Part shown: one piece after another, positions 38,482-42,456 of the stretch
Position numbering within the stretch: position 1 is the first letter of the stretch
Layout of the letters: every line of letters starts with the position of its first letter
Assembly: GCF_019711615.1 (NCBI RefSeq)
Contig: NZ_JAIGNS010000002.1
Span: forward strand, 979,501-1,043,500
DNA length: 64,000 bases
Direction: 5' to 3'
Source of the DNA: Qipengyuania intermedia
Lineage (GTDB): Bacteria > Pseudomonadota > Alphaproteobacteria > Sphingomonadales > Sphingomonadaceae
The notes under the pieces: generated by a model
The model's database searches: none
What the model saw: only the letters and a program-made list of their open reading frames with translations
Told to the model about the DNA's origin: nothing
Translations under genes and position numbers: made by a program

Positions 38482-38838
38482 TCAAACGCGGCTCAATCGG
38501 TTCATGGCATCTTTGATTTGGTGCATCGAGTAGGGCTTGGTCACCGTCGGCACGTTCTCGAAGCCTTCCGAATGCGCGCTGTCGCCATAACCTGTGGCGA
38601 ACATGATCGGTACGTCCCGGTCCAGCAAAGTCCTTGCAATGCCGTAGCTTTTCTCTCCGCGAACATTCACGTCGAGTATCGCAAAATCGAAGGAGGCCCC
38701 CTCGATGACCTCCGCCGCTTCGTCGAGCGCAGTGGCGAGCGAGACCTTGGCGCCTTCTTCCAGCAAGAGATCCTCCAGCCCGAAGGCGATGATCGGTTCA
38801 TCTTCGAGAATGAAAAAATGCAGTCCATCCATGGTCAC
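38482..38838 (-). CDS. Single-domain response regulator
   Basis: A 118-residue receiver protein. EDEP lies near residues 12-15, phospho-acceptor Asp56 is in FAILDVNVRGEK, Thr is in MFATGYGD and Lys in TKPYS. There is no output domain, so it probably acts in a phosphorelay with the HWE kinase whose stop (38835-38837) overlaps its GTG start by four bases. ATG 38832 is the alternative start. Such kinase/regulator pairs, without a DNA-binding output, resemble general-stress or light/redox systems. The specific signal is unknown. Confidence 0.88.
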   Translation of the reverse strand: MTMDGLHFFILEDEPIIAFGLEDLLLEEGAKVSLATALDEAAEVIEGASFDFAILDVNVRGEKSYGIARTLLDRDVPIMFATGYGDSAHSEGFENVPTVTKPYSMHQIKDAMNRLSRV

Positions 38839-40169
38839 AGTTTGGTCTCCAGGCGACAGCGCAGTCCATCGGGATGATACGTCAGCTCGCAGGAATCCCC
38901 GCGATTACCGAATGCACGGGAGATCAGCCGCGATCCGAAACCCCGGCGCGTTGGCTCACTGATTTTCGGTCCTCCGCTTTCCCGCCAATCGAAGATCAGG
39001 CGCGCCCCGTCTTCTCCAGCTTCACGGCCCCAGGTAATGGCCAGGCGGCCTTCTTCCTCGGACAGAGCGCCATACTTCAGCGCATTGGTCGCCAGCTCGT
39101 GGACCACCATAGCCAAGGCCACGGCGGATTGCGGGTCCAGCGTAACCTTCGGGCCGTCCAGCGAATATCTTCCGGATTGCGTCCCGGCAGTCGCTTCGAG
39201 GGAGGCTCTGACGATTTTCTCGACATCGGCCTTTCTCCAGGTGTTCTCGGTGAGAAGATCGTGCGCACTGGCAAGCGCGGCGATGCGGGCGAAGAAAACT
39301 TCCAAGCCTGCATGTCCGGTGTCGGATTTAAAGGACTGCTGGGCGAGGCCTTGAACGATGGCGAGCGTGTTCTTGACCCGGTGGTTGAGCTCGTTGATCA
39401 GCAACTGCTGCCGCTCTTCGGCTTCGACTTCCTCGCTGACATCGTACCCCTGGATCAGGATGCCGCTGACTTCGCCGGTTTCCTCGCTGATCGGCTGGAA
39501 GATGAATTCCAGGTAGGATTCCGTGGTGACGCCGGTTTCAGGGTCGACCAGGGCGACCAGCTCGCGATTGCCGAAATACGGCTCGGCGGTGGTCCTGACC
39601 TCGTCGAGTATCTTGACGAAGCCTTGCTCGACCACCTCGGGCAAAGCTTCAGCGACAGTCAGCCCGATCAGCTTGCGCCCTCCCAGAAGGCGGCGGTAGG
39701 CGGCATTCGCCATAACGAAAGTATGTTCCGGACCGGAGATGACCGCGACGAAGCCGGGCGCCTGCTCCAGCAGCATCCGGATACGATCGAGTTCCGCGGA
39801 AGCCAGACGGTATCGCTCTTCGACTTTCTTCGCTCGTTCGACGACGCTCGCTTCATCGATGGCGCGACGAAGGTTTTCCAGTTCAGTGATGTTCACCGTA
39901 TGCTGGAGGATATAGCGGACCTCGCCGTCATCGCCTTTCAAGGGCGTGTGTGTGGCGCTCCAGTAGTGCGTATCGAATGAGCCGTCGGGATTGGCGATGT
40001 CGTACCGGATGTGCGCGATTTCGTCGGCTTGGCCCGTCCTGAGCACGCGGTCGAGTGATTCCCTCAACTGCCTGTAACTCTCGCCTTCGCTTGGGAATGC
40101 CTCGAACAGCGGTCGCCCAAGAATGTCCTCTCGTTCGCGCATTGTGACGTGGAGGTAGGCATCGTTCAT
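38835..40169 (-). CDS. PAS-domain HWE-family histidine kinase, 5' end disrupted
   Basis: A 444-residue sensor kinase with an N-terminal PAS region (about 1-95), a second PAS (about 125-240), and the HWE kinase core. His263 is in the H-box ELNHRVKNTLAIVQGLAQQ, and the W-x-E motif is in FDWRESGGP. The core has the HWE-type N-box (VVHELATNALKYGALSEEEG) and FGSRLISRAF. ATG 40169 starts inside the first PAS domain. Just upstream, in the same frame, NPYVLLNRNLELAW continues the PAS fold, but a TAA at 40215-40217 separates it from IDFKELLAS. So this kinase is probably truncated in this strain. Confidence 0.85.
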   Translation of the reverse strand: MNDAYLHVTMREREDILGRPLFEAFPSEGESYRQLRESLDRVLRTGQADEIAHIRYDIANPDGSFDTHYWSATHTPLKGDDGEVRYILQHTVNITELENLRRAIDEASVVERAKKVEERYRLASAELDRIRMLLEQAPGFVAVISGPEHTFVMANAAYRRLLGGRKLIGLTVAEALPEVVEQGFVKILDEVRTTAEPYFGNRELVALVDPETGVTTESYLEFIFQPISEETGEVSGILIQGYDVSEEVEAEERQQLLINELNHRVKNTLAIVQGLAQQSFKSDTGHAGLEVFFARIAALASAHDLLTENTWRKADVEKIVRASLEATAGTQSGRYSLDGPKVTLDPQSAVALAMVVHELATNALKYGALSEEEGRLAITWGREAGEDGARLIFDWRESGGPKISEPTRRGFGSRLISRAFGNRGDSCELTYHPDGLRCRLETKL

Positions 40170-40319
40170 CCACGCAAGTTCGAGATTACGGTTTAGAAGG
40201 ACATAGGGGTTTGGTTAGCTGGCGAGCAACTCCTTGAAATCGATATCTGAAATGTGATGCGGTATCAGACCAACCCTCGCGAGGGCGCGCCCGGTCACAA
40301 GACCAGCTCGGACACCCTC
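40170..40319 (-). pseudogene. PAS N-terminal coding remnant with in-frame stop
   Basis: In frame with the downstream HWE kinase, 40170-40214 encodes NPYVLLNRNLELAW plus one residue. TAA is at 40215-40217, and 40218-40319 encodes 34 further residues ending IDFKELLAS. Read across the stop this gives a typical PAS start ([19 protein letters not shown]). The rest of the 271-base gap to rpoD holds no gene. It carries only a weak hairpin near the rpoD end. Confidence 0.6.
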
Positions 40320-40396
40320 TTACCGCTCGCAATCATTGCAATACAGCATGGTTCCCGAAGTTGCGGGAATTTCGCCAATTGCCAGCGTTATTTTAC

Positions 40397-40440: not shown

Positions 40441-42447
40441 TTACTGGTCAAGGAAAGAGCGCATTTTCCGACTGCGGCTCGGGTGCTTGAGCTTGCGCAG
40501 CGCCTTCGCCTCGATCTGGCGGATGCGTTCGCGCGTAACAGAGAACTGCTGGCCGACTTCTTCCAGAGTGTGGTCCGTGTTCATGCCGATGCCGAAGCGC
40601 ATGCGCAGCACGCGCTCTTCGCGCGGCGTCAGGCTGGCAAGGACGCGAGTGACCGTTTCCTTGAGGTTGGCCTGGATCGCTGCATCGACCGGGATGATCG
40701 CGTTCTTGTCCTCGATGAAATCGCCAAGGTGCGAATCTTCCTCGTCGCCGATCGGCGTTTCGAGGCTGATCGGTTCCTTAGCGATTTTCATCACCTTGCG
40801 CACCTTCTCGAGCGGCATGGAGAGCTTTTCCGCCATCTCTTCGGGCGTCGGTTCGCGGCCCTGGTCGTGCAGGAACTGGCGCGAACAGCGGACCAGCTTG
40901 TTGATCGTCTCGATCATGTGGACCGGGATGCGGATCGTGCGCGCCTGGTCGGCAATCGAGCGGGTGATTGCCTGGCGAATCCACCAGGTTGCGTATGTGC
41001 TGAACTTGTAGCCGCGGCGGTATTCGAACTTGTCGACCGCCTTCATCAAGCCGATGTTGCCTTCCTGGATCAGGTCGAGGAACTGCAGGCCGCGGTTGGT
41101 GTACTTCTTCGCGATCGAGATCACGAGGCGCAGGTTCGCTTCGACCATTTCCTTCTTGGCGATACGCGCCTCGCGCTCGCCCTTCTGGACCATGTTCACG
41201 ATGCGACGGAATTCGGGCAGGGCCATGCCGGTGGCGCTGGCGATGTCCGCAATTTCCGCGCGGATGCGGTCGATCGCGTCGGCTTCCTTCTCGGCGAAGG
41301 CGGCCCACTTCTTGTCCTTCTTGACCTTGTCTTGCATCCACGTGTCGTCCAGCTCGTTTCCGATGTAGGAATCGAGGAAATCGACACGCTTGACCTTGTG
41401 GCGTTCGGCCAGGCGCAACATCTGGCCGCCGAGAGCGGTCAGGCGACGGTTGAAAGCATAGAGGTTGTCGACCAGGAATTCGATCTTGGTCGCGTGGAAC
41501 TGGACGCTCTCCACTTCCGCGGTGAGCTGTTCCGAAAGCGCTTCGTACTTCTTTTCCTTGGCGGCGGGGAAATCGTCGCCGCGGCCGAGGACTTCGACGC
41601 GCTCTGCCTGGAGTTTTTCGAACTTGCCGAACAGGTCGGCGATACGCGCGAAGCGTTCGATGGCGTCCGGCTTGAGCGCGGCTTCCATCTGAGCAAGGGA
41701 CATAGTGTTGTCCTCTTCCTCTTCGTCGTCCTTCTTCGAACCTTCTTCGCCGTCTTCGTCTTCCGATTCCTCGGAATCGTCGTCGTCTTCGTCGCGAATG
41801 GTCGGACCGGCGGTTTCTTCGGAGATTTCGCCGTCGTCGTCATCGTCTTCTGCGTCGTCGTTCAGCTTATCCGCCGGGGGTTCCTTGGACAGCATGGCGT
41901 CGAGATCGAGAATCTCGCGCAGCTGCATTTCCTCGGCGTTGAGCGCTTCGGACCACTGGATGATGGCGTGGAAGGTGATCGGGCTCTGGCACAAGCCCAT
42001 GATCATCATGTCACGGCCGGACTCGATGCGCTTGGCGATGGCGATTTCGCCTTCGCGGCTGAGCAATTCGACCGCGCCCATTTCGCGCAGGTACATGCGG
42101 ACCGGGTCGTCTGTACGCTCGCCCGCGGCCAGCTTCTTGGGGCCGGTCGGCTTCTTGGCAGGCTCTTTCTCGCTGGAAGACGGCGCCGGAGCGATTTCCT
42201 CGACTTCGTCGTCCTGTTCGGCGTCTTCGTCGTTTTCGACGATCTGGACGCCCATTTCGGACAGGGCCGACTGGATATCCTCGATCTGGTCGGAGCTCAT
42301 TTCGCCCTGGGGCAAGGCGTCGTTGAGCTCGTCATAGGTGACGTAACCCTTTTTCTTCGCCTTGCTTAGAAGCTTTTTGACCGACGCTTCGTTGAGATCG
42401 ATCAGCGGTGCGTCGTCTTTGTCGCCCGACTTGGTCTTGGTGGCCAT
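40441..42447 (-). CDS. rpoD: RNA polymerase primary sigma factor RpoD
   Basis: The housekeeping sigma-70, 668 residues. Region 1.1 is at the N-terminus. A strongly acidic stretch of roughly 60 residues ([17 protein letters not shown]...) lies near residues 180-240. Region 2 has [61 protein letters not shown], split over the -10 and melting elements. Region 3 follows, and region 4 has [24 protein letters not shown] (the -35 helix). ATG 42447 is used. A TTG at 42456 would overlap the dnaG stop region and is unlikely. It follows dnaG by nine bases in a macromolecular-synthesis operon with yqeY. Confidence 0.97.
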
Positions 42448-42456
42448 AAAGAGCAA

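Follow-up and report, generated by a model that had tools for sequence, protein, structure and literature searches.

The locus considered here raises the question of what an HWE histidine kinase gene can still deliver when an in-frame TAA interrupts it within its first PAS domain. The window, i.e. the entire stretch of 64,000 nucleotides of Qipengyuania intermedia DNA that was analysed, carries the kinase frame followed by an overlapping response regulator gene, both located downstream of a presumed rpoD and all on the minus strand. Past the TAA the frame remains open for 459 codons, and ATG 40169 is the first ATG, GTG or TTG after the stop. Throughout the text, codons are counted from this ATG as position 0, negative numbers lying upstream, and relatives are denoted by locus labels such as L001. 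The features that matter for the argument are the following:

38482..38838, minus strand: single-domain response regulator (Response_reg), whose GTG start overlaps the TGA of the kinase gene
38835..40169, minus strand: remaining open frame of the HWE histidine kinase, 444 aa, comprising a truncated PAS 1, PAS 2 and the HWE_HK core according to Pfam
40170..40214, minus strand: the 15 codons PNPYVLLNRNLELAW between TAA and ATG, corresponding to strand A-beta and most of strand B-beta of the PAS domain
40215..40217, minus strand: in-frame TAA, seen in 1 of 54 sequences, in this genome only
40218..40265, minus strand: 16 codons from AUA to the stop, the conserved kinase N-terminus as judged by comparison with L001 and L016 and by alignment
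40263..40265, minus strand: candidate near-cognate start AUA, common to the four closest sequences
40274..40278, minus strand: weakened Shine-Dalgarno-like GAGGG, anti-SD duplex of -6.4 kcal/mol
40331..40355, minus strand: promoter-like motif GGAAC-N17-ATT of the EcfG type (general stress sigma factor), found by pattern match
40441..42456, minus strand: upstream neighbour, an open reading frame which we take to be rpoD, encoding the housekeeping sigma factor; a homologue precedes the kinase gene at 34 of 54 loci

The affiliation of the gene product with the HWE histidine kinases is evident from the Pfam profile HWE_HK (PF07536), which matches residues 260-341 of the remaining frame with 82.2 bits against a Pfam cut-off of 22.8. 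A WxE motif is among the marks of this kinase family. In an alignment of 31 rows including the window, residues H295, E390, N394, W427 and E429 (L001 numbering) are invariant; the meaning of the phospho-acceptor histidine box and of the N-box glutamate in HWE kinases is given in PMC12148442. The second PAS domain and the kinase core are intact, and so is the overlapping single-domain response regulator, as the earlier sequence-only reading of this DNA had stated. In 44 of 54 loci, a homologue of this regulator overlaps the kinase end or lies just past it, the offsets ranging from -13 to +12 bases. Because the regulator starts within the kinase stop and its homologue is so placed in these loci, its translation is probably coupled to that of the kinase and would be set by the ribosomes that reach the kinase end. 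The regulator itself shares 82% identity with its L001 counterpart, compared with 91% for the kinase; its branch counts, in which numbers are small, amount to 7 nonsynonymous and 6 synonymous changes for the window and 6:12 for the sister, with 30 changes unpolarised.

Protein searches detected the kinase gene in 33 out of 147 relatives (E up to 1e-60), in 28 out of 60 genomes from the genus (1e-100) and in 27 out of 249 from the family (1e-120); each count includes the genome under study, and the three sets share members. Six loci were added from a named genome collection and five duplicates were dropped, which left 54 distinct sequences: 52 relatives and one part match from Microvirga in addition to the window. 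Qipengyuania nanhaisediminis (L001) is the nearest relative with 91% identity, followed by the Q. gaetbuli group (L002, L016 and L017) with 83-84%. The in-frame TAA that had been reported inside the first PAS domain is indeed present in the assembly, with the frame conserved on both sides, and alignment reveals the same stop in 0 of 53 relatives, in keeping with the earlier reading of an interrupted gene. The codons at this position are TCG (29), TCC (9), TCT (7), TCA (6), CCC (1), GCG (1) and, in the window, TAA (1), with serine in 51 of 54 sequences; the CCC belongs to L084, in which one inserted codon has moved the register, and the GCG to L085. The single change from TTA to TAA proposed previously does not hold, since the relatives carry serine TCN instead of leucine. 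Moreover, the kinase match of none of the listed relatives (32 in the first search plus the genus and family rows) contains an internal stop, and the segment from codon -32 to the ATG is free of gaps in an eight-sequence alignment of the window's clade. A chance similarity of the sequence upstream of the stop was dismissed: relatives have the same protein sequence in one frame.

The age of the stop can be approached through the pattern of base changes. With G034 as outgroup, the kinase gene shows 12 nonsynonymous against 33 synonymous changes for the window branch and 23:34 for the sister branch (Fisher p 0.21), and downstream of the ATG, with three outgroups and 54 changes unpolarised, 8:21 compared with 22:23 (Fisher p 0.09); these differences are not significant, and the counts are blind to the time since the stop arose. 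The tip of the window in the kinase tree has a length of 0.039 versus 0.071 for the sister. The rate ratio of the kinase is 0.117 in the window and 0.217 in the sister, and the ratio pooled over 102 genes is 0.091 in the window's genome and 0.075 in the sister. Across the 15 codons that separate TAA from ATG, the comparison with L001 yields 8 synonymous base differences and 0 nonsynonymous ones; if the window branch is considered by itself, the counts are 3 synonymous and 0 nonsynonymous with 2 unpolarised, a weak count that a neutral N:S of 3.16 would produce with a probability of about 0.014. Ahead of the stop, the window branch gained 2 nonsynonymous changes in codons -31 to -17, both preceding the IDF motif, and no synonymous one. 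Marks of a decaying pseudogene were searched for in the kinase, and neither relaxed selection nor a second stop or frameshift was found. As read from these comparisons, selection has acted on the kinase gene through most of the time since its lineage split off. Because the codons between TAA and ATG show no nonsynonymous difference, this segment was probably still translated until lately. The lack of decay together with the exclusively silent differences of this segment suggests that the stop is young or else an error, of which a recent stop appears probable and a sequence error the less likely alternative.

Which part of the protein is concerned depends on where translation begins. Most orthologues feature an ATG, GTG or TTG a few codons ahead of IDF, and 15 of the 54 sequences, including the window, have no standard start between codons -36 and -24. 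Eleven of these 15, i.e. ten relatives and the window, combine the missing standard start with an AUA, AUU or AUC behind a suitably spaced Shine-Dalgarno-like stretch: AUA in the window, L001, L002, L016, L017 and L076, AUU in L003, L004 and L034, and AUC in L041 and L067. The AUA resides at codon -32 in L001, L002, L016 and L017, 16 codons ahead of the TAA site, while the candidate codon is found at -32 in L034 and at -27 in L041, L067 and L076. The corresponding anti-SD duplex energies (in kcal/mol) are -11.4 in L001, -9.9 in L002, L016 and L017, -9.4 in L067 and L076, -8.6 in L003 and L004, -6.6 in L041, -6.4 in the window and -5.9 in L034. Hence, the Shine-Dalgarno of the window is weaker than in its four closest sequences, and one extra base separates GAGGG from AUA; this weakening may predate the stop and be of no consequence. 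The median duplex energy is -9.4 for the 10 near-cognate candidates and -4.5 for 37 standard starts (p 5e-5), a comparison biased by the fact that the candidates were recognised partly by their Shine-Dalgarno; the strongest duplex at a standard start reaches -12.7. In Markov resamples, the chance of encountering a near-cognate codon paired with a Shine-Dalgarno ranged from 0.0025 to 0.09 (9 of the 11 sequences tested), values that allow for the codon search and ignore relatedness.

Two further observations bear on the AUA. Since ATA accounts for merely 5.4% of the isoleucine codons in these genes (66 of 1218), its conservation at the start site is conspicuous. In addition, the window's clade displays frame-breaking gaps upstream of codon -32 and none from -32 to 0, as expected if coding begins at -32. 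A few sequences are ambiguous or deviate: L003 and L004 have a standard ATG or GTG further upstream at codon -41, L034 an ATG at -19, and L005, which is outside the eleven, has an ATG at -28 in addition to its AUU at -32; these standard codons may be the starts in use. The remaining four sequences devoid of a standard start (L032, L036, L039 and L040) are off-pattern; the CTG at -38 in L036 and L040, the GTG at -38 in L039 and the ACG at -30 in L032 were not counted as near-cognate starts. At codon -29, L032 has TCG where its close relatives L026 and L027 start with TTG. On the kinase tree, the near-cognate label takes 5 changes for the 11 sequences and 3 changes for 8 sequences if L003, L004 and L034 are set aside, counts that do not separate gain from loss of the label. 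The notion of at least two independent origins was dropped, given that the well supported branches are compatible with one. A TTG start at codon -54 in L001 and -53 in L002, L016 and L017 was likewise discarded: it shares bases with the -10 part of the promoter-like motif, and the distances from the motif to the ATG are unlike modulo three in the window and L003. On these grounds, the gene of the closest relatives probably begins at AUA.

If, by contrast, the product of the window began at ATG 40169, codons 40170..40214 (PNPYVLLNRNLELAW) would stay untranslated. Met33 of L001 corresponds to this ATG, and an AlphaFold model of L001 (mean pLDDT 81, pTM 0.40) predicts a helix spanning residues 10-15, followed by strands at 21-25 and 29-33; local pLDDT is 84-93 in blocks of 10 residues from 11 to 40 and 61 for residues 1-10. 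According to this model, a protein started at ATG 40169 would lack the N-cap helix, A-beta and, except for its last residue, B-beta of PAS 1, and thus more than the one PAS strand whose loss had been presumed from the sequence. Pfam points in the same direction: the PAS_4 match (PF08448) spans residues 1-98 of the remaining frame and begins at position 20 of the 110-position profile, compared with position 2 in L001 and position 1 in L016. Five strands are the norm for PAS domains, and both the Pfam match and the L001 model indicate that the complete five-strand fold of PAS 1 is not preserved from ATG 40169 onwards. The best matches of L001 among solved structures are 6ph4 and 5epv, named blue-light-activated histidine kinase and presumably from Brucella; the solved kinases match residues 263-468 only, structures of Rv1364c match PAS 2 (159-300), and PAS 1 of L001 has no solved-structure match. 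ATG 40169 itself falls within a Trp-Met-Asn stretch where strand B-beta ends, and it has no Shine-Dalgarno, with a duplex energy of 0.1 kcal/mol. Furthermore, 22 of the 54 sequences have another codon at this position (GCG 14, GCA 4, GCC 2, GTG 1, ACG 1), which together with the missing Shine-Dalgarno argues that ATG 40169 is not the start used by the family.

The upstream region offers a hint at the conditions under which the kinase is made. The pattern GGAAC-N16-18-[GA]TT occurs in 25 of 54 upstream regions, including the window with its GGAAC-N17-ATT between kinase and rpoD, as compared with 0.48 expected and a maximum of 4 in 200 first-order Markov resamples of related sequences, the pattern having been picked after viewing the sequences. 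The form restricted to GTT is present in 12 of 54 regions and GGAAC alone in 35 of 54. For Sphingomonas melonis, the motif GGAAC-N17-20-GTT has been published, with ATT variants in the accompanying table (PMC6599016). For NepR, the anti-sigma factor that belongs to this response, the genome shows a strong match at G000:C2:247051 (L091) and a second, marginal match at 800369. Outside the window, at 248496 (L008) and about 1.3 kb from NepR, lies a homologue of the kinase core. NepR and this nearby homologue constitute the probable core of the general stress response, beside which the interrupted kinase would probably serve as a stress-regulon kinase, a role inferred from its promoter motif.

Taken together, these data favour, with moderate confidence, a recent nonsense mutation in a conserved and probably stress-induced HWE kinase gene, by which the full-length kinase would be lost or nearly lost. 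In the relatives, transcription would probably proceed from the EcfG-type promoter, and a single frame would be translated from ahead of the PAS N-cap helix, in the closest relatives probably from an AUA held by a strong Shine-Dalgarno. In the window, ribosomes departing from the AUA would come to a halt at the TAA after 16 codons, leaving little or no kinase. Re-initiation at ATG 40169, 45 bases downstream, may yield minute amounts of a kinase whose PAS 1 is broken; any such late-started kinase would probably be scarce as well as faulty in this domain.

A gene that shows no decay, whose neighbouring codons are conserved as in an open frame and in which just one codon is affected would equally be seen if the TAA stemmed from faulty base calling or assembly, or from a rare variant of the sequenced clone, in which case the real gene would be intact. 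This is considered unlikely in view of the apparent quality of the assembly (4 contigs, 99.98% complete) and of a control covering 108 G030 open reading frames with a G034 match over 146 kb: six, the kinase among them, are stopped in this genome, the other five are stopped in G034 as well and hence are not conserved frames, and none of the 108 has low coverage. Moreover, the TAA differs from the sister's codon by two bases, though one change suffices if the ancestor had another serine codon. Quite improbable, too, is a shifted start, i.e. a shorter kinase re-initiated at ATG 40169 that works with a reduced and perhaps signal-less PAS 1. The 444 open codons under purifying selection (8:21) and a kinase core that is intact by Pfam are in line with it, and in rcsD of Yersinia pestis an internal start is known to have restored a broken signalling gene (PMC10191623). 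Yet the signal-insensitive kinase restarted at 40169, as envisaged by the sequence-only reading, is disfavoured by the missing Shine-Dalgarno, the position of the ATG at the end of B-beta and the other codons found there in 22 of 54 sequences, and a long-standing short form is at odds with a TAA-ATG gap devoid of amino-acid differences from L001.

Least credible, and very improbable, is that the TAA is read through often enough for a full-length kinase to be formed, acting as a brake and not as a break. A frame conserved on both sides of the TAA and free of decay would also fit such a process, but TAA is generally the least leaky stop codon, no relative has a stop at this site, and Rfam yields no match between 38000 and 41000 at E 0.5, a search that addresses known recoding elements only.

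Beyond the stop itself, a wider reading can be put forward tentatively: in several lineages of the Erythrobacteraceae, orthologues of this probable general-stress kinase would use AUA, AUU or AUC together with a strong Shine-Dalgarno, keeping the kinase low and sensitive to initiation factor 3, and the window would add a stop 16 codons further on, turning the sensor down or off while the gene is kept. Taken by itself, one recent nonsense codon in a sensor kinase is nothing unusual, and the near-cognate starts are the more interesting part; the case gains its weight from the setting, a selected kinase, probably driven by the general stress sigma factor, with apparent near-cognate starts in several relatives. 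If initiation at these codons holds true, a signalling gene would join the conserved genes with weak starts, such as infC and ccpN, and gene finders confined to ATG, GTG and TTG would misplace the kinase N-terminus and clip the first PAS domain.

Among known systems, the alphaproteobacterial general-stress kinases of the HWE/HisKA2 type share with the present gene the HWE_HK domain, the PAS-PAS-kinase layout, the adjacent single-domain response regulator and an EcfG-type promoter-like motif (PMC6599016 and PMC12148442); unlike these, the window copy is stopped within PAS 1. Among the matches listed for the open-access literature, none deals with near-cognate initiation in HWE kinases. In Staphylococcus aureus, infC, cvfC1 and ccpN have AUU or AUA starts with strong or extended Shine-Dalgarno sequences that are kept across species (PMC13009471), as appears to be the case here, whereas the gene in question encodes a histidine kinase of the Erythrobacteraceae, its codon varies among AUA, AUU and AUC, and its start is predicted from sequence. 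Finally, rcsD of Yersinia pestis resembles the present locus in being a broken phosphorelay gene, the rest of which may be translatable from an internal start; in that case, according to PMC10191623, the gene is disrupted by a frameshift and an internal AUU start with a binding site was demonstrated experimentally, while the window provides a candidate at the sequence level.
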